Shown here: positions 8,909 through 36,620 of the stretch, in pieces
How the letters are laid out: each line of letters opens with the position of its first letter
Numbering within the stretch: position 1 is the first letter of the stretch
Assembly: GCF_900156045.1 (NCBI RefSeq)
Contig: NZ_FTMX01000001.1
Coordinates: forward strand, 1,116,001 to 1,180,000
Length of the DNA stretch: 64,000 nucleotides
Origin: Peribacillus simplex
GTDB taxonomy: Bacteria > Bacillota > Bacilli > Bacillales > DSM-1321
Direction: 5' to 3'
The notes under the pieces: model-generated
Told to the model about the DNA's origin: nothing
Databases searched by the model: none
Seen by the model: the letters and a program-made list of their open reading frames with translations, nothing else
Position numbers and translations under genes: made by a program

Positions 8909-8920
8909 TCTAAATGAAGA

Positions 8921-8935: not shown

Positions 8936-9002
8936 TTCGGATTTCGATAAATATATTTTAACAACTAAAAGCTAATCAATATATAAGAGGATGGTGTTGG
9001 TA

Positions 9003-9161
9003 ATGGTTTGGCTATTCATTTTATTGACAATCGTTACATATGGTTTTGTGATGAAACATGTATTGAATAATATTCAAAAATCGGCAAAGGCAGTAAAGCC
9101 TTATACCGAGTCACCAATGGAAAACCGGACTGCTTTTAACCCCGCCCCTACAACCAGGTAA
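9003..9161 (+). CDS. Small Fur-regulated membrane protein, 52 residues
   Basis: A 52-residue frame starting MVWLFILLTIVTYGF, a single membrane helix, followed by a basic segment (KHVLNNIQKSAKAVK) and a polar tail ending in FNPAPTTR. The ribosome site is AGAGGATG, about ten bases before the ATG. Two Fur boxes and a SigA-type promoter lie directly upstream and two terminators directly downstream, so it is an independent unit probably expressed under iron limitation. I do not recognise the family. It could insert in the membrane and partner an iron transporter, or act as a small regulatory peptide; neither can be decided from sequence. Confidence 0.7.
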   Translation: MVWLFILLTIVTYGFVMKHVLNNIQKSAKAVKPYTESPMENRTAFNPAPTTR

Positions 9162-9178
9162 ATATCCTGGTTTTTTTT
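9154..9178 (+). terminator. First terminator after the Fur-regulated gene
   Basis: CCAGG/CCTGG hairpin overlapping the stop codon, followed by eight T residues. Confidence 0.8.
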
Positions 9179-9203
9179 GCATTCAAAATCAATCGGCATG
9201 AAT

Positions 9204-9227
9204 CCACCAATCGGTGGTTTTTTTTTT
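9204..9227 (+). terminator. Second terminator after the Fur-regulated gene
   Basis: CCACC/GGTGG hairpin with a four-base loop followed by ten T residues, 25 bases after the first terminator. The tandem arrangement insulates dynA. Confidence 0.8.
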
Positions 9228-9342
9228 GAACATGGCCAGCGATGAATCATATAGTAAAAATAAAGCTGATGGTATGAATAACAATCGAAATCGTTTACAA
9301 TAAGAATATCAAAAAAGACGATAGATTAAGGGGTATGGATTC

Positions 9343-13056: not shown

Positions 13057-13072
13057 AAACGAGGTCTCGTTC

Positions 13073-13834: not shown

Positions 13835-13846
13835 GGGGTTTTTCGA

Positions 13847-14674: not shown

Positions 14675-14753
14675 TATTTTTTCCAATTAAACGATCCTTA
14701 AAAAAGGGGACAGTTATGTTAAAATGGAAGTACATCATGATAGAGGTGATAAT

Positions 14754-15635
14754 GTGTTAATGAAAGAAAACGAGCAGCATCCTTCCTTTTTGCTTGTCGA
14801 TGGGATGGCGCTTTTATTTAGGGCTTTTTATGCAACGGCAGTTACAGGTCAATTCATGATTAACTCAAAAGGCATCCCGACTAATGCCGTTCAAGGTTTT
14901 TTGAAGCATATGCTGACGGCGGTGAATCACTTTTCACCTAGTCATGTAGCGGTGTGTTGGGATATGGGCAGCAAGACTTTCAGAAATGAATTATTTGATG
15001 GATATAAGGCTAATCGATCAGAAGCTCCAGTCGAAATGATCCCTCAATTCGAACTAGCGAAACAAGCGGTTGAAGCATTTGATATCCCTAACATAGGGCT
15101 CTCTGGCTATGAGGCGGATGACTGTATCGGGACAATTGCCAAGGCATCAGCCCAACATAGCCGGGTGGGTATATTGACTGGCGATCAAGATATGCTTCAG
15201 CTAATAGATGAAAACATTTCTGTGCTATTGTTAAAAAAAGGATATGGTAACTATGAAGTTCATAATCCCGTTAGCTTTTTTGAATGGAAAGGGATCACAC
15301 CAAGGCAAATGATCGATTTAAAAGCTTTAATGGGTGATACAGCTGATAACTATCCCGGAGTTAAAGGAATTGGGGAGAAGACAGCGCTGAAATTATTGAT
15401 CCAGTATCAAAGTATCGAAGGGATTCTTGAAAATGTTGCTTCATTGACGAACGGGCAGCGGGCTAAAATTGAATCCGCCGTCGATATGCTTCATTTATCC
15501 AGAAAGCTAGCAGAAATAAAATGTGATGTACCAATTTCATGTTCTTTGGACGATGCTGTCTATCAGTATGATCGCGAGAAGGTCAAAAATCTGGCTAGGG
15601 ATCATGAATTCAGGACTTTACTGCGAATGATCTAA
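14754..15635 (+). CDS. ypcP: 5'-3' exonuclease (YpcP, PolI N-domain-like)
   Basis: A stand-alone flap/5'-3' exonuclease of about 293 residues, equivalent to the N-terminal domain of DNA polymerase I, able to remove RNA primers and 5' flaps. Metal-binding acidic motifs are visible: LLVDGMALLFRAF, then GYEADDCIGT, TGDQDMLQL and KALMGDTADNYPG with the helix-hairpin-helix GVKGIGEKTA. The frame is open from ATG 14724. AGAGGTGAT at 14742-14750 best serves GTG 14754, with ATG 14760 as an alternative. A terminator follows the stop. Confidence 0.92.
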   Translation: MLMKENEQHPSFLLVDGMALLFRAFYATAVTGQFMINSKGIPTNAVQGFLKHMLTAVNHFSPSHVAVCWDMGSKTFRNELFDGYKANRSEAPVEMIPQFELAKQAVEAFDIPNIGLSGYEADDCIGTIAKASAQHSRVGILTGDQDMLQLIDENISVLLLKKGYGNYEVHNPVSFFEWKGITPRQMIDLKALMGDTADNYPGVKGIGEKTALKLLIQYQSIEGILENVASLTNGQRAKIESAVDMLHLSRKLAEIKCDVPISCSLDDAVYQYDREKVKNLARDHEFRTLLRMI

Positions 15636-15644
15636 TACAATAAG

Positions 15645-15675
15645 CGGAGCTTCCAAAGTGGGAGCTCTTTTATTT
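15645..15675 (+). terminator. Terminator of ypcP
   Basis: GGAGCTTCCA pairs with TGGGAGCTC around a short loop, followed by TTTTATTT. Confidence 0.8.
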
Positions 15676-15744
15676 ATACGGTGATTTTTTTGTCGAAAAA
15701 TGGATAGTCAAAATCTTTGATATACGGTAAGATGAAATTAAGGC

Positions 15745-16038
15745 ATGAAGTATGGAGTGGATGCAGAAGTGGTGAAATCAACTGAAGAGTATGTTAGTTT
15801 TTTAGAGGGTAAGGGATTCACTTTTGGTAATGACGCTATTGGTTTTATTTATTTTGGTAAGCGCTACACGGATGCGAGTGATATTTTAGTCAATGCAGCA
15901 ATAGAATTGACATTGAAGGTACAAAAGAACTTTGATGGCAGCTTTTATATCTCCTTTTTGGAAAACTTAAAACAAAATGGCATTGAAACGCGTAGTGCAG
16001 CGGTATCTTTTGCAAAAGAACAGGGGCTGCTTAAATAA
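15745..16038 (+). CDS. Uncharacterised small protein, 97 residues
   Basis: A 97-residue soluble protein I do not recognise. It reads as a compact alternating helix/strand sequence with FIYFGKRYTDASDILVN in the middle and a C-terminal helix ending AVSFAKEQGLLK; there are no cysteines, signal or membrane segment. The ribosome site before ATG 15745 is weak (TTAAGG); GTG 15769 is a possible later start. A bidirectional terminator follows immediately. Its position between ypcP and a transporter gives no functional clue. Confidence 0.6.
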   Translation: MKYGVDAEVVKSTEEYVSFLEGKGFTFGNDAIGFIYFGKRYTDASDILVNAAIELTLKVQKNFDGSFYISFLENLKQNGIETRSAAVSFAKEQGLLK

Positions 16039-16077
16039 AAATCGGACTTCGTAACTGGAAGTCCGATTTATTTTATT
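16039..16077. terminator. Bidirectional terminator
   Basis: AAATCGGACTTC pairs with GAAGTCCGATTT, with A residues before and T residues after the stem. It serves the convergent 97-residue gene and the DMT-type transporter gene. Confidence 0.85.
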
Positions 16078-16084
16078 GGCCTTT

Positions 16085-16993
16085 TCAAGAAAACTCCTGT
16101 GTCACGGGTTTCTTTTTCTTAACAGGCAGTTCAGCGAAAATCATCCCCAAGAATATGAATGCGCAGCCGATAATGGAGGCGGTAGTCAATTTTTCCCCTA
16201 TCAATATGTATGAGGATAACGCGGCAAAAACCGGTTCCATTGAAAAGATCAGCGCCACTCTTGTAGGTGTCGTATAGGCTTGGAAGAAGGTTTGTGCAAA
16301 AAAGGCGAACGCAGTGGCAAGGGCAGCCGTAACCAATAAAGCAGTCCATACGTCCTTCTGTAACATGACCTCTGAGCTGAAGATGACGGAATGATTCTCT
16401 TTGAAAATGAAGGCTGACACAAATGATAATAAAGAAACGGTGGAAACCTGAATCAGCGTCAACGGTAAAGCGGGTAAGGTCTTGGCATATCTAGCGGTTG
16501 TAATGATCTGCATGGCAAAACTGATTGCACATAAAAATACCAGTAAATCACCGATATTCAAATTGGAGCGGTCAGCGAAAGTCATTAAATAAAGCCCGAT
16601 GGTTGCGGCTGCGACACCTATTATTGTATTGCGGGAAAGCCTATGTTTTAAAAGCAGCAGGGAAAACACGGGTACCATGACGACACTTAATCCTGTTATA
16701 AAGCCTGTCTTCGCAGGGGTTGTATAATTCAATCCGATCGTTTGAAGCCCATACCCCAGAAAAAGCCAAACCCCAATATGAAATCCAGCTATAAAAAGAC
16801 CCTTGTTCCAAGTTTTCCCCTTTTTGTGTAAAGTCGATATATAAGGGATGAGCAAGAAAACGAACGCCATGAAGAAACGGACCGCATTAAACGTGAAGGG
16901 GTCTAGAAAAGATAGCGCATTTTGGACCATGACAAAAGTGACGCCCCAAATGAATACAACGAATAGTAATGAAAAATCAGCTGTCTTGTTCAT
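16085..16993 (-). CDS. EamA/DMT-superfamily transporter
   Basis: A 302-residue membrane protein with about ten hydrophobic helices arranged as two EamA repeats, each with the GxTFxxxxxA-type start (WGVTFVMVQNALSFLDP in the first). Drug/metabolite transporters of this type export amino acids or other metabolites; the substrate is not predictable. The C terminus is a lysine-rich cytoplasmic tail. Its start codon overlaps the end of the RNase H-like gene by 17 bases, so the two genes probably form an operon on the minus strand. Confidence 0.85.
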   Translation of the reverse strand: MNKTADFSLLFVVFIWGVTFVMVQNALSFLDPFTFNAVRFFMAFVFLLIPYISTLHKKGKTWNKGLFIAGFHIGVWLFLGYGLQTIGLNYTTPAKTGFITGLSVVMVPVFSLLLLKHRLSRNTIIGVAAATIGLYLMTFADRSNLNIGDLLVFLCAISFAMQIITTARYAKTLPALPLTLIQVSTVSLLSFVSAFIFKENHSVIFSSEVMLQKDVWTALLVTAALATAFAFFAQTFFQAYTTPTRVALIFSMEPVFAALSSYILIGEKLTTASIIGCAFIFLGMIFAELPVKKKKPVTQEFS

Positions 16994-24395: not shown

Positions 24396-26330
24396 TTGAT
24401 AAAAATAAAACTCGTTGTTCCTCGAAAAGGGTATATTACGGATGCTTTTGAAAGATTTGAGGAATTCAACAAGTTGGAAGAATCGGACAACAATGATAAC
24501 GGTGCAGTGAAGTTTGTTTTAGAGGAGGTGGTTGAGGATGCCGATAAGATTGGGAAGTTGAAGCTGGATGCTGATGTAATCATTTCAAGGGGATTAATCA
24601 CGAAACTATTAAAAGAAAGCAATGAATTCATTCCTATCGTTGATATACCTGTACAAGGTATTGACCTCATTCGTTCCCTGTATGATTGCAAGGCACGTTT
24701 TGGCAGTAAAAAAGTGGCCGTTATAGGAGCGTTAAACATGATTTATGGCGTGGAAAACCTTTCGGATATTGTTGATTTGCCGATTCAGTCCTATATATTA
24801 AATGATATCGAGTCCTCAGTCAGTTTAGTGGATTTGGCTACCAGCGATGGCTGTGAGGTTGTGTTAAGTGGTTTAAGTACCTGTAAATATGCTGAAGAGA
24901 TAGGGTTGGGAGCCATTCTGGTTGACACTGGAAAGGAATCATTTCGGCAGGCGTTGATTGAGGCGAAAAGAGTAGCTCTTGTCAGCAGAAGGGAACAGGA
25001 GAAGACCAAGCGTTACCAAACGATTCTTAATTATGCCTATGAAGGGGTTATTGCTATAGATTTAAAAGGACAAATATCTGTATTTAATACGGCGGCTCAG
25101 GAGATATTATCCATTTCGAGGGGGAGCTTAATTGGAAATTCCATATACGAGATAATAAAGCCCGGGAAATTTCGTAATATGCTTTTAAGCGACGATGAAT
25201 ACGAAAAAGATACCGTTGCTTACCAATCGATTCAATTATCGGTAAAAAAAGTTGGGATATTTTTAAAGGGTAAAAAAGTGGGCGATATGGTCGCCTTTCA
25301 AGATGTTACGCGCATTCAAGAGATGGAAGGGAAGTTCTTTAGAAAGCTTCATTTACGCGGACATGTGGCTAAGTACACATTTGATGATATATTGTATCGA
25401 AGTTCCGAAATTAAGAGGACGATTGAAACAGCTCAACGTTATAGTGAAGTAGATTCAAACATTCTTATAATTGGAGAAACCGGAACGGGCAAGGAAATAT
25501 TCGCCCAAAGCATACATAATCATAGCAATCGGAAAAATAACCCGTTTGTAGCCATTAATTGCGCGGCGCTTCCCGAAAATTTATTGGAAAGTGAGCTTTT
25601 CGGATATGCAGAAGGAGCTTTCACGGGAGCCATGAAAGGCGGAAAGCAAGGATTTTTTGAACTGGCTCATAGAGGTACGATTTTTTTAGATGAAATAGGG
25701 GAAATCTCCCCAAAAATGCAAAGCCGGCTGCTACGTGTCCTCCAAGAGCGGGAAATCATGCGCATCGGTGATGATAAAGTAATTCCGGTTGATGTGAGAA
25801 TTGTATCCGCAACGAACAAAGACCTCATGCAAATGGTGAAATGTAATGACTTTCGGGAGGATCTGTATTATCGCTTGAGTGTACTGGACCTTGTATTGCC
25901 TCCACTTCGGGAACGCAGAGAAGATATACCGTTATTGGTGAATGCATTTATTCAGAAAGGTCATTCGGATCAAAAGCAAATTAAGATTACGGATGCAGCC
26001 ATGAAAAAGCTGAGCGAAGAAAATTGGGAAGGGAATATTCGCCAATTGCAAAATTTTTGTGAGCGATTATGCGCCCTTTATAAAGATAAGTTAATTGATG
26101 TGTACGATATTGAAATGTATTTTCCCAATAGAAGTAAAAAGAAAATACAGTTGTCGACACAAGACGAAGAAATGGATATGTCACCTGGGATGCATTTATC
26201 CGAGCGTGAAAGAATTGTTCAAATGTTAATCAAGGTTAATTTTAATAAAGGAAAAGCTGCTTTTGAGTTAGGAATGAGTCGCACGACTTTATGGAGAAAG
26301 ATGAAACACTTGAATATTGAAACAAATTGA
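24396..26330 (+). CDS. Sigma-54-dependent activator with PrpR-N sensor and PAS domain
   Basis: A 644-residue enhancer-binding protein. Domains: a PrpR-N-like effector domain (about 1-165), a PAS domain (about 200-300, ending GDMVAFQDVTRIQEM), a sigma-54 AAA+ domain (Walker A GETGTGKE at 360-367; GAFTGA at 407-412, which contacts sigma-54; arginine fingers near FREDLYYRLSVL), and a Fis-type HTH at the end (GKAAFELGMSRTTLWRKM). The frame opens at 24267, but GGAGGTGG at 24383-24390 places the start at TTG 24396. It reads toward the catabolic operon that begins after a -24/-12 promoter, and most likely activates it. Confidence 0.92.
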   Translation: MIKIKLVVPRKGYITDAFERFEEFNKLEESDNNDNGAVKFVLEEVVEDADKIGKLKLDADVIISRGLITKLLKESNEFIPIVDIPVQGIDLIRSLYDCKARFGSKKVAVIGALNMIYGVENLSDIVDLPIQSYILNDIESSVSLVDLATSDGCEVVLSGLSTCKYAEEIGLGAILVDTGKESFRQALIEAKRVALVSRREQEKTKRYQTILNYAYEGVIAIDLKGQISVFNTAAQEILSISRGSLIGNSIYEIIKPGKFRNMLLSDDEYEKDTVAYQSIQLSVKKVGIFLKGKKVGDMVAFQDVTRIQEMEGKFFRKLHLRGHVAKYTFDDILYRSSEIKRTIETAQRYSEVDSNILIIGETGTGKEIFAQSIHNHSNRKNNPFVAINCAALPENLLESELFGYAEGAFTGAMKGGKQGFFELAHRGTIFLDEIGEISPKMQSRLLRVLQEREIMRIGDDKVIPVDVRIVSATNKDLMQMVKCNDFREDLYYRLSVLDLVLPPLRERREDIPLLVNAFIQKGHSDQKQIKITDAAMKKLSEENWEGNIRQLQNFCERLCALYKDKLIDVYDIEMYFPNRSKKKIQLSTQDEEMDMSPGMHLSERERIVQMLIKVNFNKGKAAFELGMSRTTLWRKMKHLNIETN

Positions 26331-26370
26331 AACGTAATGATACTGATTAATTCATTTTGAAACAATTTGT
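26317..26370 (+). promoter_or_regulatory. Candidate enhancer sites of the sigma-54 activator
   Basis: TTGAAACAAATTG (26317-26329) and TTGAAACAATTTG (26357-26369) are near-identical and lie exactly 40 bases apart, about four helical turns. They are 70-120 bases upstream of the -24 element, which is where enhancer proteins bind. The first copy overlaps the activator's stop codon. Confidence 0.55.
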
Positions 26371-26438
26371 TAACTTTATTTTTGTCTTAATATAAGAGCT
26401 AATTGGCTTCTTTCTTGAAAAAACGGATGTTTTTTATA

Positions 26439-26455
26439 TTGGCACAATAATTGTA
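26439..26455 (+). promoter_or_regulatory. Sigma-54 promoter of the catabolic operon
   Basis: TTGGCAC-AATAA-TTGTA matches the -24/-12 consensus (TTGGCAC-N5-TTGCW) except for one T at the -12 GC. The GG and G(C) elements have the required spacing. The first gene starts 57 bases downstream, and the preceding gene encodes a sigma-54 activator. Confidence 0.85.
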
Positions 26456-26511
26456 TATATAACAATGCAGTAGGAAAGATTTTTCCTTCAAGGTTAATAT
26501 GAAAGGTTGGT

Positions 26512-27492
26512 GTGAAGTTGAGTCATTTAGTGTATATTCCTCAAGATATTGAGAAAGAGGGGAAAAGTTATTTACTAGAAAAGGGCTATAAGATTAAAGT
26601 TGGGTCTGATCTGTCGCAAGAAATTCTTATGGAAGAAATCAAGGGGTGTGATGCAGTACTAACGAGATCAACGGCTGTAATAAATAAAGAAGTTATTCAA
26701 GCAGCTGAAAACCTCAAAGTGATTGCCAAGTATGGTGTGGGTTTAGACAATATTGATATCGAAGCTGCTACAGAGCGTGGCATTTATGTAACAAATACAC
26801 CAGAGGCAAATGCGAATTCTGTAGCTGAACATGTAATGGCATTAATTTTATCATTGTCCAAAAATTTAAGCTTGGCTGATAAAGAGCTGCGCAGCGGGAA
26901 TTTTGCTATTCGTAATCAACTTTTTGGCATGGACTTGGAAGGCAAGACCTTGGGGATTATCGGACTGGGGAGAATCGGTAGAATACTGGCAAAAAAGGCT
27001 TTCCAAGGCTTCGATATGAAAGTGATTGGCTACGATCCCTATGTTACAGCAAGAACGAGTTCGGAGTTGGAGATAGCAACAGATTTAGAATGGGTATTCA
27101 GAAACTCTGATGTTATTAGCCTGCATCTGCCGTTAACGAAAACAACAAAAGGGATAATAGGAAGCCGTGAGTTTTCCTGGATGAAACCTTCTTCCTATTT
27201 TGTAAACGCTTCCAGAGGCGGTGTGGTGAAGGAAAGTGATTTAGTAAATGCTTTGCAAGCTGGCCAGATTGCCGGCGCTGGAATTGACGTATTTGAAGTT
27301 GAGCCTCCTGATAAATGGAACCCACTTTTTAAATTGGATAATGTGATTGTCAGTCCACATAATGCGGCATTGACGAAGGAAGGCTCGATACGCATGGCTG
27401 TACATGCAGCAATGCAAGTGGAACAAGTTCTTACAGGCCTGCAACCGAATTGGGCTGTAAATGAGCCCTTAACTAAAGGGCTGTCAATGTAA
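26512..27492 (+). CDS. D-2-hydroxyacid dehydrogenase (phosphoglycerate dehydrogenase family)
   Basis: A 326-residue NAD-dependent dehydrogenase that interconverts a 2-hydroxy acid and a 2-oxo acid. The Rossmann motif GLGRIGRILAKKAFQGFD is near 149-166. The catalytic set is Arg in NASRGGVVKE, Glu in IDVFEVEPP and His in SPHNAALT. There is no ACT domain, so it is unlikely to be the biosynthetic SerA. The start is GTG 26512 (TTG 26518 is an alternative). It is the first gene after the sigma-54 promoter, which implies catabolic oxidation of an unknown hydroxy acid or reduction of the operon's oxo acid. Confidence 0.88.
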   Translation: MKLSHLVYIPQDIEKEGKSYLLEKGYKIKVGSDLSQEILMEEIKGCDAVLTRSTAVINKEVIQAAENLKVIAKYGVGLDNIDIEAATERGIYVTNTPEANANSVAEHVMALILSLSKNLSLADKELRSGNFAIRNQLFGMDLEGKTLGIIGLGRIGRILAKKAFQGFDMKVIGYDPYVTARTSSELEIATDLEWVFRNSDVISLHLPLTKTTKGIIGSREFSWMKPSSYFVNASRGGVVKESDLVNALQAGQIAGAGIDVFEVEPPDKWNPLFKLDNVIVSPHNAALTKEGSIRMAVHAAMQVEQVLTGLQPNWAVNEPLTKGLSM

Positions 27493-27578
27493 TAATATAG
27501 AAAAAATTATCTGTTTTTTCAGAAAACGAAGGATTGGATGGTTCAAGTTGGGCATTTGTTGATAAGGATGGTGAACAA

Positions 27579-27770
27579 ATGAAGAAAATGATCTATGTGA
27601 TAAGTGCAATACCGGCACTTGGCTCGCTTGTGGTTATCAATCGGATTGAACCTTATGTTTTAGGGATGCCATTTGTTCTTTTTTGGGCCATATTATGGGT
27701 TTGTCTTACATCAGTGTTTTTAATAATTGCCAATAAACTTGATCCTGCAACCGAGGAGGAAGAAGACTGA
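27579..27770 (+). CDS. DUF3311-type small membrane subunit of a symporter
   Basis: A 63-residue protein with two hydrophobic helices (MIYVISAIPALGSLVVI and FVLFWAILWVCLTSVFLII) and an acidic tail. Proteins of this type (DUF3311) regularly precede sodium:solute symporter genes and probably form a small accessory subunit. The frame is open from 27534; AAGGATGGTG points to ATG 27579. The stop overlaps the symporter start by one base (TGATG), so the two are coupled. Confidence 0.82.
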   Translation: MKKMIYVISAIPALGSLVVINRIEPYVLGMPFVLFWAILWVCLTSVFLIIANKLDPATEEEED

Positions 27771-29263
27771 TGAATGAAGCCCTGCTTGTTATCCTTTTCT
27801 TTCTGGTTCTGTGTATTTGGTTAGGGCTTCAAGCTCGAAAAGGTAAAAATATGAGTTTGGAACAATGGGCTATAGGCGGAAGGGGTTTCGGCAGCTTTTT
27901 GCTCTTCTTCTTGATAGCAGGTGAAATGTTTACGACCTATACGTTTTTGGGGGCAAGCGGCGGAGCTTATAGATCTGGTATGCCTCCTGCCTTATACGCT
28001 TTCAATTGCTTCTATTTTGTAATCGCCTATTGGCTGTTGCCGCCTATTTGGAGATATGCAAAAAAAAATAATGTCATCTCTCAATCTGATTTTTATGATA
28101 AAAAGTACAATAGTCCGGCTTTAGGAGTTCTTGTGGCGGTAATTAGCGTCATTTCAATTATTCCATATCTGATCATGCAGTTGAAAGGGTTAGGAATTAT
28201 CGTATCGGAAGCCTCCTATGGGTCCATTTCTCCAAATGTGGCTATAGTCGTAAGTGTCATTGCGATCACAATTTATGTAACTGCTTCAGGGATGCATGGG
28301 GTAGCGTGGACCGCGGTCATTAAAGATATCATGATTCTGACTGTTGTCGTCTTCATGGGGATTTATTTTCCACTTCATTATTACGGTGGTTTACAGCCGA
28401 TGTTTGAAGCAATCGATACGGCAAAACAAGGTTTTTTGATTTTCCCGGAACAAGGTTTGAGTATCTCTTGGTTTATTTCAGCTACGATCATGACGGCACT
28501 GGCATTCTATATGTTTCCTCATATGTTGGCGGGAGTATTCTCTGCAAAAAGTCCAAAATCACTTCGTTGGAATGCTGGGGTTATGCCAATTTATCAAGTA
28601 ATCATCATTTTTTCGTTATTTATTGGTTTTTCTGCGATTCTCCAAGTTCCGAATTTACAGGGGGCAGAAACAGACTTAGCTTTATTTAAACTGGCGAAGA
28701 TGTCATTTGATCCCTGGTTTGTAGGGGTTATTGGAGCATCAGGGGCGATGGCCGCCCTTATACCTAGTTCACTCGTGTTGACGGCCACTGCCACGATACT
28801 TTCCAAGAATGTTTATAAGGTGTGGAGGCCGAATACATCAGATGAACAGCTTCAAAGACTGAGCAGGATGTTAGTGCCTGCCATTTCCATAGTGACTCTA
28901 TATTTTACGTTTAATGGCGGGGAGTCGATTTTTACGCTGTATCTTATGGCATATAGCTTCATGGCACAGTTGTTCCCCGCATTATTTTTTAGTTTGTGGA
29001 AAAAGAACCCTGTTACCGTTCAAGGAGCTTTTGCCGGAATGATCGTTGGAATTCTAATTGTCATATACTCGACTACTTCAGGTACGACACTTGCTACTTT
29101 ATTTCCATCTCTACCGCAAGCAATACAAGATCTTGATGTAGGGTTAGCTGTATTACTCATCAACATTGCAGTAACTTTGGGAGTGAGTGCCGTTACAAGA
29201 AAAACATCAATTGGGATGGAAGAAGATAATAAACAAGCTTCAGGAATGGACAAAACTAGTTAA
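27770..29263 (+). CDS. Sodium:solute symporter (SSS family)
   Basis: A 497-residue membrane transporter with about 13 helices of the LeuT fold, related to pantothenate/monocarboxylate/proline symporters. Family features include the N-terminal GGRGFG segment followed by GEMFTTYTFLGASG, and a polar C-terminal tail. It should import an organic acid or zwitterion with Na+. Position in the operon, coupled to DUF3311 and next to oxo-acid enzymes, suggests it imports the pathway substrate. The substrate itself is not readable. Confidence 0.88.
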   Translation: MNEALLVILFFLVLCIWLGLQARKGKNMSLEQWAIGGRGFGSFLLFFLIAGEMFTTYTFLGASGGAYRSGMPPALYAFNCFYFVIAYWLLPPIWRYAKKNNVISQSDFYDKKYNSPALGVLVAVISVISIIPYLIMQLKGLGIIVSEASYGSISPNVAIVVSVIAITIYVTASGMHGVAWTAVIKDIMILTVVVFMGIYFPLHYYGGLQPMFEAIDTAKQGFLIFPEQGLSISWFISATIMTALAFYMFPHMLAGVFSAKSPKSLRWNAGVMPIYQVIIIFSLFIGFSAILQVPNLQGAETDLALFKLAKMSFDPWFVGVIGASGAMAALIPSSLVLTATATILSKNVYKVWRPNTSDEQLQRLSRMLVPAISIVTLYFTFNGGESIFTLYLMAYSFMAQLFPALFFSLWKKNPVTVQGAFAGMIVGILIVIYSTTSGTTLATLFPSLPQAIQDLDVGLAVLLINIAVTLGVSAVTRKTSIGMEEDNKQASGMDKTS

Positions 29264-29346
29264 ATGATAGTGGGAATGAGTCCAATTTTAATATAATCAT
29301 AAATTACTAGAACAATAACACGTACTTGAAAGCGGGAGGCTTGATT

Positions 29347-31011
29347 ATGAAAGTCAGTGGAGGAAGAGCAGTCGTAGAAGTAATGGCTAAAGAAGGGGTA
29401 AAAAAAGCTTTTTGTGTACCAGGTGAAAGTTATTTAAGTGTAATGGATGCACTATATCAACATCCTGAAATAGAACTTATTTCCGCCAGGCATGAAGGGG
29501 GTGCCTCTTTTATGGCGGAAGGGTATGCCAAGGCTTCGGGAGAGGTGGGGGTTTGTATGGCAACGCGTGGAGTTGGTGCTACAAACTTAGCTATCGGCAT
29601 TCATACTGCTGCCCAAGACTCAACCCCTTTGGTTGCGCTTATTGGCCAAGTCGAACGTCCTTTTAAAGAAAAGGAAGCATTCCAGGAGGTGAATTTGACG
29701 GGTTTTTTCAGTCATTTATGTAAATGGACGGTAGAGATCGATCGTGTGGAAAGGATCCCGGAATTATTGCAACGGGCGTTCCATATTGCGCGATCGGGGC
29801 GTCCGGGCCCTGTATTGGTGGCTTTGCCGCATGACATGTTAGAAGATGAGGCAGAGTTGAACATAAATCCTTCTTATCGCTCGCTTCCTCCTCAACCGCA
29901 TATGGAAGTTGTGAAGCAGGCGATGGATATGATACGAAACGCGGAGCGTCCTGTATTGATTGCTGGTGGAGGTGTGATTCATGCTAAGGCCAACAGGTTG
30001 CTTGTACAGTTTGTGGAGGCAATGAAACTTCCTGTCATTACAGCTTTCCGGCGATTTGACGCGTTTCCGAACTCACATCCTTGCTATGCGGGATGGCTTG
30101 GGTTTGGGACACCACAATATTTACTTGATGCAATCCGCGATGCAGATGTAGTTTTGGCATTGGGGACACGATTCTCTCAAGTAGGAACACAAGATTACAC
30201 CTTGCTTTCTAAAAATTCAAAGCTGATCCATGTGGATATTTGTCCCGATATTTTTGGTAAAGTATATGCACCTTTTCTTGCCATTGAAGCGGATGCCAAG
30301 AGCTTCCTGGAAAAAGCACTGCAAGCGCCAGAACCAGGATCTATTATTTCAAGCGAAGACCATTTGAAAGAATTGCATGATAAATATATGGAATTTTCTG
30401 AAACAAAAGCCGACTACACAGAAGACTTCGTGGATATGGACGGATTGATGCATGATCTTGCCGTCTGTCTGCCGAAGGATACCATCATTACAAATGATGC
30501 TGGCAACTTTTTCGGATGGCTATCTAGATATTACCGTTTCGAACAAGAAAACACATACGTAGGGCCGACGTCGGGTGCGATGGGATACGGACTGCCCGCT
30601 GCTATTGGGGCAAAGCTGGCGCAGCCTCACAAACATGTTGTATCAATTTCTGGAGATGGCGGCTTTATGATGACTCTCCAAGAGATTGAAACCGCTGTAC
30701 GGTATAAAATTCCGACCATATCAATTGTTGTCAACAACAATATTTACGGGACAATTCGTGTACATCAAGAAAGTCATTTTCCAAATCGGGTCGTTGGAAC
30801 TGACTTGTCTAATCCTGATTTTGCCGAATTGGCACGATTATTTGGAGCACATGGTGAAAAGGTTGAAAAAAATAGTGATTTTGCGCCAGCGCTGCAAAGG
30901 GCGATTGCTTCTGGGCTGCCGGCTGTAATCGAGGTTGCAGTCAATCCAAAGATCTTATCTGTAGGCCAAGATAAGAAAGAAGTACACGAAAAGCTAGTGT
31001 CAAACAATTAA
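29347..31011 (+). CDS. Thiamine-diphosphate-dependent decarboxylase/synthase (acetolactate synthase-like)
   Basis: A 554-residue ThDP enzyme with all three domains. The N-terminal PYR domain has the catalytic glutamate in SARHEGGASFMAEGYA, the central domain follows, and the C-terminal PP domain has the cofactor motif GDGGFMMTLQEIETA ending VVNNN. Family members cleave or join 2-oxo acids: acetolactate synthase, benzoylformate decarboxylase, benzaldehyde lyase. With an amino-acid dehydrogenase, a hydroxyacid dehydrogenase and an aldehyde dehydrogenase in the same operon, decarboxylation of a 2-oxo acid to an aldehyde is the likeliest role. No small regulatory ilvH-like subunit is present. The start is ATG 29347 behind GCGGGAGG. 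Confidence 0.88.
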   Translation: MKVSGGRAVVEVMAKEGVKKAFCVPGESYLSVMDALYQHPEIELISARHEGGASFMAEGYAKASGEVGVCMATRGVGATNLAIGIHTAAQDSTPLVALIGQVERPFKEKEAFQEVNLTGFFSHLCKWTVEIDRVERIPELLQRAFHIARSGRPGPVLVALPHDMLEDEAELNINPSYRSLPPQPHMEVVKQAMDMIRNAERPVLIAGGGVIHAKANRLLVQFVEAMKLPVITAFRRFDAFPNSHPCYAGWLGFGTPQYLLDAIRDADVVLALGTRFSQVGTQDYTLLSKNSKLIHVDICPDIFGKVYAPFLAIEADAKSFLEKALQAPEPGSIISSEDHLKELHDKYMEFSETKADYTEDFVDMDGLMHDLAVCLPKDTIITNDAGNFFGWLSRYYRFEQENTYVGPTSGAMGYGLPAAIGAKLAQPHKHVVSISGDGGFMMTLQEIETAVRYKIPTISIVVNNNIYGTIRVHQESHFPNRVVGTDLSNPDFAELARLFGAHGEKVEKNSDFAPALQRAIASGLPAVIEVAVNPKILSVGQDKKEVHEKLVSNN

Positions 31012-31096
31012 TTGCCGGCATGACTGCTTTGGTATTGTTTGCATTGGAAGATAGCAGGAACCAATAAAAGTAGGATATTCAAGGGAGGTTTCATAG

Positions 31097-32278
31097 TTGT
31101 TAAAACCATATTTAGTTGTGGAATGGAATGATACGGAAACGGATGCTAAAGGCTGGCTGGTCGTCCATAACTTTGTAAAAGGCTACACAGGCGGCGGTAC
31201 AAGAATGCACCCAACGGTTACAAGAGAAGAGGTCGAAAGGCTGGCCGAGGCCATGGCTTATAAGTATGTTGCCTGTGAGTCTGAGACGACTGGCGGTTGT
31301 AAAGCGGGCATTGCCTATGATTATAAGGCGCCAGACGCATATGCGGTGTTAAGAAGATTTCTGATTGCGATGATGCCTTATATAGATATAGGGGTATCTT
31401 TAGGCAGTGATTTAGGTACCAAATATGAAGATGTGCTCAAAATATTTAATGAATTTGGTATTGATATCCCACTAACGAAATCAATGAAGCAGAATCCGAA
31501 TGTTCTGCAAGGCATAAAAGACTTCGATGAATTGTTGACGACAAAAATCGATGGGCTGTTTATAAACGATGTCGTAACAGGCTATGGTGTGGCATTTTCC
31601 GCAGATGAGGCGTGGAAATTTAAAAGCGGAAAAGGTGGAGCGAGAGTTGTCATTCAAGGATTCGGCTGTGTAGGGGCAAGCTGTGCATTGAAAATGTCCC
31701 AGTTAGGTTATAAAGTCGTGGGAATTTCCGATGCAGCTCTTTTGGTAACGTGTGAAGCAGGATTAGATGTCCAAAAGCTCATTGATCATAAGAATATGTA
31801 CGGAGAAATGGATAAAGCCTTTTTTGAACCGCATTATGACGTAAGACCGAACACGGAATGGCTCGACATAGAGTGCGACATTTTAATTCCGTCCGCACTG
31901 GAGGATGTCATCCACATATCTAATGCTAAAAGCGTAAAAGCGAGCTTGATTGTGGAGGCGGCAAACATTCCCCTTTCTTCTGAGGGAGACGAAATCATAA
32001 AACAAAGAGGAATTGATGTTGTCAATGATTTTGTTGCCAACCTGGGGGCGATAAGATTTTATGATGCGGTTATTTTCGGACTAGTTAAACCAAATCCACA
32101 AGCTGTCGTTGATGATATTGAAAAACTATGCAGGAAAAATACGTATCACTTGTTTACACAAGCTAAAAACCAAAATAAATATCAAAGAGAAGTAGCTTAT
32201 GAAATATTTAAACCGACAATCAGCGACTTACCGGAATTTGCAGAGCCTTCCGAAGCGTTATCGGGGAACTCTCGTTAA
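31097..32278 (+). CDS. Glu/Leu/Phe/Val-family amino-acid dehydrogenase
   Basis: A 393-residue NAD(P)-dependent oxidative deaminase. The substrate-domain signature GGGTRMHPTVTREEVERLA and the catalytic lysine in TTGGCKAGI are visible. The nucleotide domain carries VVIQGFGCVGASCALKMSQLG. The segment where GluDH has KDIPAPD reads SLGSDLGTKYEDV, so it is not an ordinary glutamate dehydrogenase. A substrate other than Glu is likely, giving a 2-oxo acid that the ThDP enzyme next door could use. The start is TTG 31097, 8 bases after GGGAGG. Confidence 0.85.
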   Translation: MLKPYLVVEWNDTETDAKGWLVVHNFVKGYTGGGTRMHPTVTREEVERLAEAMAYKYVACESETTGGCKAGIAYDYKAPDAYAVLRRFLIAMMPYIDIGVSLGSDLGTKYEDVLKIFNEFGIDIPLTKSMKQNPNVLQGIKDFDELLTTKIDGLFINDVVTGYGVAFSADEAWKFKSGKGGARVVIQGFGCVGASCALKMSQLGYKVVGISDAALLVTCEAGLDVQKLIDHKNMYGEMDKAFFEPHYDVRPNTEWLDIECDILIPSALEDVIHISNAKSVKASLIVEAANIPLSSEGDEIIKQRGIDVVNDFVANLGAIRFYDAVIFGLVKPNPQAVVDDIEKLCRKNTYHLFTQAKNQNKYQREVAYEIFKPTISDLPEFAEPSEALSGNSR

Positions 32279-32336
32279 CTTTTGTTAATCAAAAAAGTGT
32301 TTAGGCAGTTTATCGATTAGAAACGGGGGGGAATTC

Positions 32337-33767
32337 ATGCAAGCAGAACATGAAAATCAACCAAAAGAATTACAGCGCTCAATGAAGAGTAGACATTTAT
32401 TCATGCTCTCCTTAGGTGGGATAATTGGAACAGGTCTTTTCCTGGGATCAGGATATGCAATCGGTGAAGCTGGACCCTTAGGAGCGATTGTTGCCTATTT
32501 AGTCGGTGGTTTGTTAATGTACTTGGCGATGATTTGTCTTGGTGAATTATCGGTAGTGATGCCTGTGTCCGGTTCCTTTCAGGTCCATGCAACGAAATTC
32601 ATTGGACCTGCCACTGGTTTTGTCATTGGCTGGATTTACTGGCTGAGCTGGGCTCTTTATGTAGGCTTGGAATTCGTAGCGGCCGGTTTGCTCATGACTA
32701 GATGGTTTCCCGATATACCAGTATGGATATGGTGTGTGATATTTACGGTACTTTTATTCTCTATAAATGCATTAACAACGAGAAGTTTCGCAGAGACAGA
32801 ATATTGGTTCTCCGGAATTAAAGTACTTGCCGTTATTCTATTCATAATTATCGGTGCGGCAGCGATGTTTGGCTGGATTCAAATGGAGGATGCACAACCC
32901 GCCCCGTTCTTTTCCAATTTTATAGGTGATGGACTATTCCCTACAGGTTTCACGGGTGTGTTTATTTCGATGATGACAGTCGTATATGCATTCCAGGGAT
33001 CGGAAATCATGGGTGTTGCAGCAGGAGAGACGGAAAACCCGCAACATAGCATTCCGAGAGCGATTAGAAACATCGTAATACGTGTGCTGCTTTTCTATGT
33101 ACTGGCAATCTTTGTTCTATCGGCTATCGTTCCGTGGCAAGAAGTCGGAGTACTGGAAAGCCCATTTGTTACCGTGTTTGAAATGGTAGGCATTCCTTAT
33201 GCAGCTGACATTATGAATTTTGTAATATTGACTGCGGTACTCTCTGTTGGGAACACGGGACTGTTTGCTTGTACCAGAATCCTTTTCTCCCTTTCCCAAA
33301 ATGGTATGGCGCATTCTGCATTTGGAAAGCTCAATCGGCGCGGTGTACCGTTTAATGCCTTACTCGTCACCATGGTCTTTGCCTTGCTGTCGCTACTTAC
33401 TAGTGTAGTAGCGGAAGAAACGTTATTTGTTGTGCTACTTTCCATAAGCGGGGTTGGCGGGGTGCTTACTTGGATAGCGATTGCGTTCGCACAGTATAGA
33501 TTCCGTAAACAGTATATCAGAGCAGGCGGAAAGGTTGAAGATCTGAAGTTTAGAGTACCTTTCTTCCCATTTGTCCCTATTCTCTGCATACTTATGTGTC
33601 TAGGCATTTTCGTGTTCACCGCATATGATCCGACACAGCGAACTTCGTTGTATTGGGGTTTAGGTTTCGTCGTTGCTAGCTATATATTTTACTATTTTAG
33701 ATATACGAGAAGGAAAATAGAGGTGCCGGCATTATCGAATGAACCGCCCAATGACTTTGTCCAATAG
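32337..33767 (+). CDS. Amino-acid permease (APC superfamily, AAT type)
   Basis: A 476-residue, 12-helix permease starting ELQRSMKSRHLFMLSLGG followed by GIIGTGLFLGSG. This is the classic first-helix signature of the amino acid transporter family (GabP, LysP, AnsP relatives). It carries a cationic-neutral type consensus around ETENPQHSIPRAI. It imports an amino acid by proton symport. Its location between the amino-acid dehydrogenase and the aldehyde dehydrogenase genes suggests it brings in the dehydrogenase substrate. The start is ATG 32337 behind a G-run ribosome site. Confidence 0.88.
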   Translation: MQAEHENQPKELQRSMKSRHLFMLSLGGIIGTGLFLGSGYAIGEAGPLGAIVAYLVGGLLMYLAMICLGELSVVMPVSGSFQVHATKFIGPATGFVIGWIYWLSWALYVGLEFVAAGLLMTRWFPDIPVWIWCVIFTVLLFSINALTTRSFAETEYWFSGIKVLAVILFIIIGAAAMFGWIQMEDAQPAPFFSNFIGDGLFPTGFTGVFISMMTVVYAFQGSEIMGVAAGETENPQHSIPRAIRNIVIRVLLFYVLAIFVLSAIVPWQEVGVLESPFVTVFEMVGIPYAADIMNFVILTAVLSVGNTGLFACTRILFSLSQNGMAHSAFGKLNRRGVPFNALLVTMVFALLSLLTSVVAEETLFVVLLSISGVGGVLTWIAIAFAQYRFRKQYIRAGGKVEDLKFRVPFFPFVPILCILMCLGIFVFTAYDPTQRTSLYWGLGFVVASYIFYYFRYTRRKIEVPALSNEPPNDFVQ

Positions 33768-33899
33768 GGATTATTCTTAATATGCCCGACAAAAGAAATC
33801 GTTCGAGATGCAGGGATCGTTGAAGGATCCATTTAGAAGTTCCGGTTATAAGAAAAACTATGATTGAAAAGTAGAAAAATAGAATACGGAGGAAATATT

Positions 33900-35342
33900 A
33901 TGCGTTACTTAAATTATATTAACGGAAAATGGCAAGAACCAACTACAGGGGAGTACAAGGAAAACCTTAGTCCCCATAATGGAGAGAATTTAGGAGAATT
34001 TCCATCTAGCTCGGCGGCTGATTTACATGATGCAGTGGCTGCCGCAAAAAATTCATTTCCTGCTTGGAAAAAACTATCGTTTCAGCAAAGGGCTTCATAC
34101 TTGCAGAAAGCAGCTGAAATTTTGAAAAAGAATATGCAGGAAGTGGGTCAGGATTTGATAAAGGAAGAAGGAAAAACATTTCTGGAAGGGATGGGGGAAG
34201 CCAATCGAGCTGCCAGCATTCTTGAATATTATGCTGCTGAAGCCCGGCAGCCACTCGGGGAAGTAATTCCTTCAGCGAATGCCAATACATTTTTATACAC
34301 TACCCGTACCCCTCTCGGACCGGTGGGGTTGATTACACCATGGAACTTTCCAATTGCCATCCCTGTGTGGAAATTGGCGCCTGCCCTGATTTACGGGAAT
34401 ACAGTCGTGATTAAACCGGCTGATCTTACACCTAAGTCGGTTTATCATGTGATAAAAGCATTTGATGAAGCGGGAATTCCGGCCGGAGTCATTAATTGTG
34501 TATTCGGAAGGGGGTCCGTCATTGGTGCTGCATTAGTGGAGCATCCTGATGTGAAGGCAATATCTTTTACTGGTTCGAATCAAGTAGGTCAGCAAATCCA
34601 AAAACAAGCCATTGAACATGGGAAGAAAGTGCAAGTGGAAATGGGAGGGAAAAACCCGCTCGTCGTATTAGCTGATGCTGATCTAGAAAAAGCAGTGGAA
34701 ATCGCTGTAGGCGGAGCCTTTAAGTCCACTGGGCAAAAATGTACAGCCACCAGCAGGGTGATTGTCGAAGAAGGAATATATGAAGCATTCCGGGACCGTC
34801 TTGTCGCCCGTACGAAAGAATTAAAGGTAGGTAACCCGCTCAACGAAGAAACATTTATCGGTCCCGCTGTATCTAGATCACAACGCGATGGCGTGCTTGA
34901 AATGATTGATGCTGGGAAATCAGAAGCAACGTTATTGTGTGGAGGAGAGGTTCCGACCGATGAGGAATTGGCGAACGGTTATTATGTACGACCGGCTATC
35001 TTTGAAAATGTTGCCCAGCATGCCCGCATTGCACGTGAAGAAATCTTTGGACCAGTCATCGCACTGTTTAAGGCAGGAAATTATGAGGATGCAGTTAAGA
35101 TGGCGAATGATTCCGAATATGGATTGAGCGCAGCAATTTGCACGAATAATTTAACGGCGGCTCAAAAGTTTATTGAAGATGTCGAAGTGGGTCTTGTCCA
35201 TGTCAATTCGGAAACAGCAGGAACTGAGCCGCAAATGCCATTTGGCGGATGTAAAAATTCAAGTGCAGGCAGCCGTGAACAAGGGAAGAGTGCCGTTGAA
35301 TTTTATACAGAAGTCAAGACAGTCTATATGGATCGGGTATAA
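33900..35342 (+). CDS. NAD(P)-dependent aldehyde dehydrogenase
   Basis: A 480-residue aldehyde dehydrogenase. The catalytic cysteine is in KSTGQKCTATSRV, the general base Glu in VQVEMGGKNPL, and the cofactor loop in SFTGSNQVGQQI. It is closest by eye to succinate- or 2-oxoglutarate-semialdehyde dehydrogenases, but the substrate is not certain. In this operon it should oxidise the aldehyde released by the ThDP enzyme. The frame is open from 33864; the ACGGAGGA site sets the start at ATG 33900. Confidence 0.92.
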   Translation: MRYLNYINGKWQEPTTGEYKENLSPHNGENLGEFPSSSAADLHDAVAAAKNSFPAWKKLSFQQRASYLQKAAEILKKNMQEVGQDLIKEEGKTFLEGMGEANRAASILEYYAAEARQPLGEVIPSANANTFLYTTRTPLGPVGLITPWNFPIAIPVWKLAPALIYGNTVVIKPADLTPKSVYHVIKAFDEAGIPAGVINCVFGRGSVIGAALVEHPDVKAISFTGSNQVGQQIQKQAIEHGKKVQVEMGGKNPLVVLADADLEKAVEIAVGGAFKSTGQKCTATSRVIVEEGIYEAFRDRLVARTKELKVGNPLNEETFIGPAVSRSQRDGVLEMIDAGKSEATLLCGGEVPTDEELANGYYVRPAIFENVAQHARIAREEIFGPVIALFKAGNYEDAVKMANDSEYGLSAAICTNNLTAAQKFIEDVEVGLVHVNSETAGTEPQMPFGGCKNSSAGSREQGKSAVEFYTEVKTVYMDRV

Positions 35343-35407
35343 GAACAAATTATACCAAGCGTTTTTAAACTTTTAAATTAGATTATAATTCAGGAGGGAT
35401 CTTCAAT

Positions 35408-36439
35408 ATGTCCACTAAAGAAAATGTACAGTTCAGCCCTACACTCCCATATTCACGGTATGTCGATCCAGAGGTATTCAATGAAGAAAGAAAAAAAATC
35501 TTTAGAAAGAGTTGGATATTGGCAGGGCATGCAAGCCAAGTTGAAAAAGTGGGCGATTTCATGACATTGGATATCGCTGGAGAGCCCATTATCGTTTCTC
35601 ACGGTCCTGATGGTGAACTGCGAGCTTTTTACAATATTTGCCCTCATCGCGGAATGAAAGTAGAAAACTCCGATAAAGGAAATAAAAAAATTTTACAATG
35701 CGGATACCATGGATGGACGTTCAAATTAGATGGAAGTGTAAATAGAGCTCCTAATTTTAAAACGAATGAATTGGGCATACACAGCTGTATGAAATCCATA
35801 CGCTTAGAAGTTCAGAATGCCATGATTTTTGTCAATCTAGACAAAAATGCACCTTCCATGGCAAAAGCATATCAGGAATTTTTAGAGGAAATGAAAGAGT
35901 ATCCCTTCTTTGATTCACTGAAACTAGTTAGGGAAACCCGCCGTGTAGTTAAAGCTAACTGGAAAGCTGTTGTTGACAATTACCTTGAATGTGATCATTG
36001 TTCCATTGCTCATCCTGGCTTTGCAAAATCTTTTGATTTATCAAACTTTTGCACAACGACACACGACAAATTCACCTATCAATATATGACCGTAAGCAAG
36101 AATGGTGAGGGTGACCAAGCACGTTTTTATTGGGTTTGGCCAAATATGATGATTAACGTTTATCCAGGAGACGGGAATGTGAATACCATTCAAGTAATTC
36201 CTGTTGATGCTGAGACGTCGTTAGGTATTTATCGTGATTACTCCCTCGATGAAAAAACAACCATAGAAAAAGAAGAATATTTTAAATTTGTTGATCAAGT
36301 ACGGCAGGAAGATTTTGAACTGGTGGAAAAATTGCAAAAAGGATTAAGTTCCGAGGCATTTACAAATGGTATCTTCTCTCCAACTGAACATGCTGCAGTT
36401 TATTTTCATGAACTTATTGATAATAACCTCCAGAACTAA
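35408..36439 (+). CDS. Rieske non-heme iron oxygenase, alpha subunit
   Basis: A 343-residue oxygenase component. The Rieske [2Fe-2S] ligands are Cys78, His80 (CPHRG), Cys98 and His101 (CGYHGW). The mononuclear iron site shows His197 and His202 in ECDHCSIAH, with a distal Asp near RQEDFELVEK. The residue three before His197, normally a bridging Asp, is Glu194. From memory, Glu at this place is seen in the carnitine/quaternary-amine oxygenase group (CntA). No reductase or ferredoxin gene is in the operon, so electrons must come from elsewhere. The substrate is unknown; hydroxylation or N-demethylation are both possible. Confidence 0.9.
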   Translation: MSTKENVQFSPTLPYSRYVDPEVFNEERKKIFRKSWILAGHASQVEKVGDFMTLDIAGEPIIVSHGPDGELRAFYNICPHRGMKVENSDKGNKKILQCGYHGWTFKLDGSVNRAPNFKTNELGIHSCMKSIRLEVQNAMIFVNLDKNAPSMAKAYQEFLEEMKEYPFFDSLKLVRETRRVVKANWKAVVDNYLECDHCSIAHPGFAKSFDLSNFCTTTHDKFTYQYMTVSKNGEGDQARFYWVWPNMMINVYPGDGNVNTIQVIPVDAETSLGIYRDYSLDEKTTIEKEEYFKFVDQVRQEDFELVEKLQKGLSSEAFTNGIFSPTEHAAVYFHELIDNNLQN

Positions 36440-36512
36440 CTAGCTGCCAATTGGAATGCACTTAAAAAAGAAACGTTATAGATAATATGTAAATTTAATA
36501 GCACTTAAGCAA

Positions 36513-36562
36513 ACAACCAGTATGATTCGGTAGTTTACCGGAGCATACTGGTTGTGTTGTTT
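36513..36562 (+). terminator. Terminator of the catabolic operon
   Basis: ACAACCAGTATG pairs perfectly with CATACTGGTTGT around a longer, partly paired loop; a T-rich stretch follows. It marks the end of the operon after the Rieske oxygenase gene. Confidence 0.8.
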
Positions 36563-36620
36563 TATTTGTGATGACTTTTTTGCTTATTTGAACGACCGAT
36601 AAAATTGAACTGCCTTTTAT

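Follow-up and report, generated by a model that had tools for sequence, protein, structure and literature searches.

A Probable Sigma-54-Controlled Operon for N6-Trimethyllysine Catabolism in Peribacillus simplex

A 64,000-nucleotide stretch of the Peribacillus simplex genome (positions 1,116,001–1,180,000 of contig NZ_FTMX01000001.1, assembly GCF_900156045.1; hereafter the window) contains, at positions 24396–36439 on the + strand, a sigma-54-dependent activator gene and eight co-directional genes that form an operon. This operon probably serves the aerobic catabolism of N6-trimethyllysine (TML), a methylated amino acid released from proteins, by the route set out below. No single gene names the substrate; the comparison of 51 loci that encode the amino-acid dehydrogenase (AADH) of the operon points to TML, because a six-carbon α-amino acid with a terminal trimethylammonium group meets the amino-acid, quaternary-amine, and glutarate clues together. 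We infer the substrates, the order of the steps, the part played by the reductase, and the ligand of the activator from sequence comparison.

In the proposed pathway, the amino-acid permease (32337–33767) would import TML, and AADH (31097–32278) would remove its α-amino group, yielding 2-oxo-6-trimethylaminohexanoate. The thiamine diphosphate (ThDP)-dependent enzyme (29347–31011) would decarboxylate this 2-oxo acid to 5-trimethylaminopentanal, which an aldehyde dehydrogenase (ALDH; a dedicated betaine-aldehyde-type enzyme in sister clusters) would oxidize to δ-valerobetaine (5-aminovalerate betaine, TMAVA). The CntA-like Rieske oxygenase (35408–36439), served by a reductase encoded elsewhere, would then hydroxylate the carbon next to the nitrogen, releasing trimethylamine and glutarate semialdehyde, and the GucD-type ALDH (33900–35342) would convert the latter to glutarate. 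Glutarate would be used either via the glutarate dioxygenase GlaH and the L-2-hydroxyglutarate oxidase LhgO or via a CoA-transferase and glutaryl-CoA dehydrogenase. Transcription would be activated by the PrpR_N/PAS sigma-54 protein. In anaerobes, namely gut Lachnospiraceae and relatives of Desulfovibrio, AADH would instead feed a 2-oxoacid:ferredoxin oxidoreductase and an ADP-forming acyl-CoA synthetase, yielding δ-valerobetaine and ATP without O2. On balance, we lean towards the view that AADH represents an undescribed family of TML dehydrogenases on which two pathways are built: in Bacillaceae, an aerobic route to trimethylamine and glutarate; in gut Lachnospiraceae and relatives of Desulfovibrio, an O2-independent, ATP-yielding route to δ-valerobetaine.

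The Amino-Acid Dehydrogenase

Among the products of the operon, AADH stands out most. Domains and alignment identify it as a divergent branch of the glutamate dehydrogenase superfamily: it has the two Pfam domains of the Glu/Leu/Phe/Val dehydrogenases and the catalytic Lys/Lys/Asp residues, and its best solved relatives are glutamate dehydrogenases (about 124 bits). In glutamate dehydrogenase numbering, the catalytic residues K113, K125, and D165 are kept in 20/20 aligned AADHs. K89 and S380, the γ-carboxylate ligands of glutamate dehydrogenase, are both replaced, the former by Gly (20/20) and the latter by Tyr (19/20); glutamate is therefore an unlikely substrate. The Tyr at the end of the pocket would suit a cation.

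A scan of genome contigs with AADH identified 58 loci. Loci L083–L089, with only 28–29% identity, were set aside, and the remaining 51 (L032–L082) were compared. They were divided by organism name into 32 Bacillales-type loci (termed aerobic) and 19 others (termed anaerobic), which come from Lachnospiraceae and other clostridia, Desulfovibrionaceae, Desulforhopalus, two Deltaproteobacteria, and Celerinatantimonas. The family of each shared gene cluster was mostly assigned from one or a few scanned representatives. Five named loci, four from Peribacillus and one from Bacillus sp. BA3, encode an AADH 93–97% identical to that of the window. The AADH tree includes 49 of the 51 loci; L081 (interrupted frames) and L057 (start motif unmatched) were dropped.

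Decarboxylating Modules Around AADH

The ThDP gene is found in 29/32 aerobic and 0/19 anaerobic loci, and the α subunit of 2-oxoacid:ferredoxin oxidoreductase in 18/19 anaerobic and 0/32 aerobic loci. The anaerobic loci also encode the β (17/19) and γ (16/19) subunits and an ADP-forming acyl-CoA synthetase (17/19), with these families assigned from one representative. Among the aerobes, the ThDP enzyme occurs in two forms with a mutual identity of 26–29%: the window type, which belongs to the PRK08199 subfamily (718.1 bits; cut-off 539), and the PRK07064 type, which matches the model of 5-guanidino-2-oxopentanoate decarboxylase below threshold (322/500 bits; here and below, score/cut-off). The window type is found in two separated AADH clades, and the well-supported branches of the 49-row tree force at least three changes of label. 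Three interchangeable 2-oxo-acid decarboxylating modules, namely two distant ThDP enzymes and the oxidoreductase with acyl-CoA synthetase, thus surround one AADH family. Because these are three unlike machines around a single dehydrogenase, AADH is assigned the formation of the 2-oxo acid.

Genome samples drawn by phylum (398), order (397), and class (398) gave 3, 15, and 3 AADH matches, respectively, the window's own being among them in each. Fourteen regions were fetched, of which six had already been seen, four carry new high-scoring AADHs, and four carry low-scoring relatives. All four new high-scoring AADHs lie beside partners of the expected kind: L141 and L142 encode the oxidoreductase and acyl-CoA synthetase; L163 encodes a permease, CoA-transferase, ThDP enzyme, ALDH, and Rieske oxygenase; and L166 encodes an activator, hydroxyacid dehydrogenase, symporter, ALDH, Rieske oxygenase, and permease, with no ThDP match. 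Beside the low-scoring relatives (L167–L170; 311–330 bits), Rieske, ThDP, oxidoreductase, and window-type permease genes are absent in 4/4 regions, which contain single weak matches to hydroxyacid dehydrogenase, ALDH, M20, basic-amino-acid carrier, or acyl-CoA dehydrogenase.

Some loci have a composition of their own. In L068 (Celerinatantimonas diazotrophica), a minimal set consists of a divergent hydroxyacid dehydrogenase, AADH, and an MFS carrier with no decarboxylating module; such a set could strip ammonia from an amino acid without net redox change. The reduced cluster of Bacillus badius (L038, 9743–11170) has no symporter, ThDP, or ALDH match, and by eye a ThDP-like N-terminal remnant lies in frame with AADH. 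Peribacillus frigoritolerans FJAT-2396 (L047) has both cluster types; in the second, AADH is 85% identical and the ThDP enzyme is of the alternative type. An M20-type amidohydrolase gene, present in 14/51 loci (seven aerobic and seven anaerobic; two members checked with hidden Markov models, HMMs), might liberate an N-acylated or peptide-bound substrate.

The Rieske Oxygenase and Quaternary-Ammonium Clues

Profile match, solved relatives, and residues place the Rieske protein in the quaternary-ammonium group, and it is the candidate δ-valerobetaine monooxygenase. Among solved proteins, carnitine monooxygenase CntA matches it best (220.8 bits, against 117.6 bits for the enzyme that follows). 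In CntA, Y203 binds the trimethylammonium group by a cation–π interaction (PMC7948474), E205 bridges electrons, and the C206/C209 pair is one that occurs in some group V enzymes (PMC7948474, PMC10952381), whereas the demethylating group Vb enzymes GbcA and Stc2 are described without the aromatic residue (PMC7948474, PMC10952381). Tyr192, Glu194, and Cys195/Cys198 of the window protein occupy the corresponding positions, so that it has both the aromatic residue and the bridging Glu with a Cys-X-X-Cys pair that characterize group Va. All 24 Rieske proteins of the clusters (from 23 loci) retain the counterparts of E205 and C206/C209, and the Y203 position is always aromatic (Tyr in 21, Phe in 3). 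To GbcA (glycine betaine monooxygenase), the window protein has a partial match of 160 bits, against 670 for the NCBIfam equivalog. Since this residue set is kept, C-hydroxylation with release of trimethylamine is predicted, as for a group Va enzyme.

The Rieske gene is found in 23/32 aerobic and 0/19 anaerobic loci, and other genes also suggest a quaternary amine. The extra ALDH of the sister (PRK07064-type) clusters has betaine aldehyde dehydrogenase as its best model (590.1/668.6 bits) and scores 522.5 bits to a solved one. A BCCT-type gene occurs in 6/51 loci (L044, L070, L072, L073, L076, and L082, of which L044, L073, and L076 were scanned), and that of L044 has CaiT as its best model (499.7/541). 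The background in Blautia parvula is six BCCT matches in 6.2 Mb, so a BCCT gene within 10 kb of AADH would be rare by chance. In addition, L043 encodes an OpuAC-type binding protein, L061 an OsmF-like one, and L060 an MttB homologue.

Glutarate Genes

Genes that consume glutarate are linked to 11/32 aerobic loci and supply the five-carbon clue. LhgO (603.4 bits; cut-off 299; one member scanned) is encoded in L039, L041, L042, L045, L048, and L053, and GlaH (433.1 bits; cut-off 333; one member scanned) in five of these six; LhgO, DUF3870, and GlaH sit behind the GucD-type ALDH in these sister loci. The Gottfriedia-type loci (L052, L054, L055, and L063) and L036 encode a CoA-transferase that scores best with the model of succinate-glutarate CoA-transferase (399.5/750), accompanied in 4/5 loci by a glutaryl-CoA-dehydrogenase-like acyl-CoA dehydrogenase (379/470; second-best model) and preceded in 4/5 by a −24/−12 site. 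In P. frigoritolerans FJAT-2396, a second GlaH gene lies about 2 kb past the end of the second locus. The genome of the window itself encodes GlaH and, by eye, an LhgO-like protein on another contig, as well as a CoA-transferase (60% identical); its closest homologue of the sister betaine-aldehyde-type ALDH (68%) lies in another gene group.

DUF3870 genes (L042, L045, L136, and L137; two members confirmed by Pfam) accompany both glutarate modules, in the arrangements LhgO–DUF3870–GlaH and CoA-transferase–acyl-CoA dehydrogenase–DUF3870, which suggests an unrecognized role in glutarate metabolism.

Organization and Sigma-54 Control of the Operon

The operon comprises a sigma-54 activator, a −24/−12 promoter, eight co-directional genes, and a terminator-like hairpin. 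The activator (24396–26330; TTG start) matches profiles for a PrpR_N sensor, PAS, AAA+, and Fis-type helix-turn-helix (HTH_8) domains; it reaches no NCBIfam equivalog cut-off, PrdR being the best model (408.1/795 bits). In the 181-bp gap between this gene and the next, a near-consensus −24/−12 promoter, TTGGCACAATAATTGTA, is predicted by pattern match at 26439–26455. Across the 6.08-Mb genome, TTGGCAYN5TTGYW is matched at 45 sites, versus four for the reversed control pattern. A looser pattern with one mismatch gives a weak signal over the window (60 sites; shuffle mean 48; 5/100 shuffles as high). An AAA+ sigma-54 activator and a matching promoter are thus both present.

The first gene behind the promoter (hadh, 26512–27492) encodes by domain and family matches a D-2-hydroxyacid dehydrogenase of the phosphoglycerate/glyoxylate reductase type. 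Its role is uncertain; the family is found in 10/51 loci, and the enzyme perhaps reduces the 2-oxo acid or gives entry to a hydroxy acid. It is followed by a small DUF3311 protein (27579–27770; profile match), whose gene overlaps the symporter start in an ATGA, and by an SSF-family Na+/solute symporter (27770–29263; best model MctP, 210.8/625 bits). The ThDP, AADH, permease, ALDH, and Rieske genes complete the operon, in which intergenic spacing is −1 to 132 bp. Profile matches give S-methylmethionine permease as the best NCBIfam model of the permease (548.4/716) and α-ketoglutaric semialdehyde dehydrogenase GucD as that of the ALDH (667.3/770), the putative glutarate semialdehyde dehydrogenase. 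Downstream of the Rieske gene, the fold of 36500–36570 (−31.7 kcal/mol; z = −6.6) contains a terminator-like hairpin at 36507–36562 (+ strand). A simple terminator scan detects there only a weak site (36537–36552, inside the hairpin) and, from the first to the last operon gene on the + strand, only weak sites of 5–6 pairs.

The original prediction, which described an activator with eight co-directional genes under sigma-54 control and transporters of two families, agrees with this organization: every part is present, the −24/−12 match at 26439 lies in the gap before the first gene, and the transporters are the SSF symporter and the amino-acid permease. As to the search for conserved synteny that it proposed, the gene order recurs in relatives, and six named loci (L032–L036 and L038) likewise have a −24/−12 site ahead of hadh. 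Elsewhere in the window (56879–59095), exact TGGCN7TTGC sequences at 56879 (− strand), 57097 (+), and 59081 (+) may indicate a further gene under sigma-54 control.

A strict −24/−12 pattern finds 35 sites in the 32 loci L032–L063 versus 0–3 in five rounds of mononucleotide shuffling, with near-identical loci inflating the former number. A cluster gene follows 31 of the 35 sites: Rieske (12), hydroxyacid dehydrogenase (6), permease (4), CoA-transferase (4), reductase (3), symporter (1), and AADH (1; 773 bp off). At least one such site is present in 22/32 loci. A gene for a TrxR-like reductase is found in six loci, and the homologue in the window's own genome (73%; contig C15, 935983–936975) has a −24/−12 site about 150 bp upstream; it may be the missing reductase of the operon.

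Two further gene groups of the same genome have −24/−12 sites. On contig C15 (926001–945000; positions 1767–12651 of that region, L138), a second Rieske cluster with two sites encodes a reductase, a Rieske protein (48% identical, same motif), an ALDH, an isocitrate/isopropylmalate-type dehydrogenase, a further open reading frame (ORF), and a symporter-like ORF; as a guess, it might encode a carnitine-type pathway. On contig C23 (1189001–1209000; positions 2997–16978, L177), a group behind one site comprises ORFs resembling a permease and a reductase along with a gene for a betaine-aldehyde-type dehydrogenase (68% to that of the sister clusters); on visual inspection, it could be a set for amine N-demethylation.

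Weighing of the TML Pathway and Its Alternatives

Several observations weigh against the TML pathway. Most NCBIfam matches fall short of equivalog cut-offs, the best match of the permease is an S-methylmethionine permease and not a TML carrier, and neither the hydroxyacid dehydrogenase nor the invariant Arg320 of AADH has an explained place. CntA is reported not to turn over longer-chain analogues (PMC7948474). A full Rieske gene is missing in 9/32 aerobic loci: L040 retains a partial match, contig ends truncate L046 and L052, and the Oceanobacillus and Virgibacillus loci contain only ThDP, betaine-aldehyde-type ALDH, and AADH genes. Without it, the proposed route would have to end at δ-valerobetaine, which perhaps serves as an osmolyte. 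Among the 19 anaerobic loci, an MttB-like gene is found in only one and BCCT genes near AADH in five, all from related clostridia, and none of the 17 BCCT matches of Desulforhopalus is at its AADH locus. Linkage of glutarate genes is limited to the 11/32 loci, and in L036 they are on the opposite strand; the window operon itself lacks reductase and glutarate genes and encodes a single ALDH, with candidates elsewhere in the genome. In the genus, GlaH is found in 13/13 genomes with AADH (broken in two) versus 7/23 without (Fisher p = 3.4e-5), an association that is confounded by ancestry. Lastly, 10 of the 32 loci L032–L063 have no strict −24/−12 site ahead of a cluster gene.

The main rival, although unlikely, keeps the substrate and changes the order: the Rieske oxygenase would cleave TML to trimethylamine and 2-aminoadipate semialdehyde, ALDH would form 2-aminoadipate, AADH would form 2-oxoadipate, and the ThDP enzyme or ferredoxin oxidoreductase would decarboxylate the latter towards glutarate. 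This order, too, leads to glutarate and leaves no gene class unused; the membership of AADH in the glutamate dehydrogenase superfamily speaks for it, and 2-aminoadipate stays alive as the AADH substrate because the invariant Arg320 could bind a carboxylate. However, both γ-carboxylate ligands are replaced in AADH, and betaine aldehyde dehydrogenase is the top model for the extra ALDH, with piperideine-carboxylate dehydrogenase not among the best 25 models listed. Moreover, the 19 anaerobic loci have no Rieske gene, yet five have a BCCT-type gene.

Lysine itself or another N6-substituted lysine is still less likely to be the main substrate. It would yield a five-carbon chain likewise, and lysine catabolism via glutarate with CsiD and LhgO is established (PMC6265302), but GabT handles 5-aminovalerate in that pathway, with no need for a Rieske oxygenase, and the BCCT, CntA-like, and MttB-like genes speak for a quaternary amine.

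We consider two other substrates improbable. S-Methylmethionine, with dimethylsulfoniopropionate (DMSP) as an intermediate, would suit the best match of the permease, and BCCT/OpuAC-type carriers can carry DMSP; however, the end product would have three carbons whereas the linked genes consume five-carbon glutarate, and by eye no DMSP-specific gene was recognized among the shared neighbor clusters. The general chemistry of AADH, ThDP enzyme, and ALDH would also suit a common hydrophobic or aromatic amino acid degraded by an Ehrlich- or mandelate-type route, to which the Rieske gene would be unrelated; this was the idea of the original prediction. Such a route is opposed by the Rieske gene, which is present in 23/32 aerobic loci, bears the quaternary-ammonium signature, and has its own −24/−12 site in 12 loci. 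The original prediction is thus partly supported. Its catabolic logic (amino acid to 2-oxo acid, aldehyde by the ThDP enzyme, and acid by ALDH) holds. Its likeness to a mandelate/phenylglycine route does not, as no aromatic-catabolic partner was recognized in neighbor clusters of at least 4/51 loci (by eye; subset HMM-checked), and its view of the Rieske oxygenase as a misfit is revised, given the kinship with CntA and the retained aromatic, Glu, and Cys residues. The substrate that it left unidentified would now be TML, from the CntA-like oxygenase and the glutarate genes of the sister clusters.

Two further candidates were rejected. For a sulfonate (cysteate/sulfolactate) route, no desulfonating partner was recognized in clusters common to at least four loci (by eye; subset HMM-checked). 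An α-N-methylated betaine, prompted by an N-methyltryptophan-oxidase-type gene in L043 (455.2/257 bits), was dropped because AADH chemistry needs a free α-amino group and the linked genes consume glutarate.

Relation to Known Pathways

Under the phrases searched, no paper was retrieved on trimethyllysine degradation, and among the related literature matches listed, in which subscription journals are thinly covered, no title describes such a gene cluster, in line with the original prediction that this gene set corresponds to no described pathway. The carnitine monooxygenase pathway of Acinetobacter (CntA/CntB; PMC7948474) resembles the proposed TML pathway in that a group Va Rieske oxygenase releases trimethylamine from a betaine, as predicted here, and in the CaiT-like BCCT carrier of one sister cluster (L044). 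It differs in that the predicted betaine here has five carbons and derives from an α-amino acid by upstream AADH and ThDP steps, and in that the sister clusters are accompanied by a TrxR-like reductase rather than CntB. The conversion of TML to TMAVA by gut microbes, ascribed to DavB/DavA (PMC8976029, PMC11773067), has the same start and product, but DavB is a monooxygenase, whereas a dehydrogenase and decarboxylation would act here, with an oxygenase-free version in anaerobes. The anaerobic gut pathway from γ-butyrobetaine to trimethylamine (PMC8364193) likewise concerns anaerobic gut metabolism of a carnitine-like betaine, but starts from a four-carbon one, and its text, as indexed, does not mention trimethyllysine. 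The lysine–glutarate–L-2-hydroxyglutarate pathway (CsiD/GlaH and LhgO; PMC6265302) shares the glutarate end part, for which sister-cluster genes score above curated cut-offs; entry here would be from a quaternary amine and not by 5-aminovalerate transamination. The arginine transaminase pathway, through 5-guanidino-2-oxopentanoate decarboxylase, likewise relies on ThDP to decarboxylate a 2-oxo acid whose side chain is cationic, but the ThDP match is only sub-threshold (322/500), and by eye no ureohydrolase was recognized among the shared neighbors.

Biological Significance

TMAVA is said, in the titles of referenced papers, to affect the brain. It is formed from TML by gut microbes and has been called an obesogen (PMC11773067), and a connection with cardiac hypertrophy is described (PMC8976029). 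Lysine 2-monooxygenase, which uses O2, is among the enzymes to which its formation has been ascribed. If the proposed pathways are correct, the cluster of AADH, ferredoxin oxidoreductase, and acyl-CoA synthetase in anaerobes such as Blautia and Faecalicatena would be an O2-free source of δ-valerobetaine and would provide a marker gene for it. A substrate would likewise be assigned to a nine-gene operon of soil bacteria and to two uncharacterized ThDP subfamilies, and the operon would show how the carbon of protein methyllysine is recycled to trimethylamine and glutarate.

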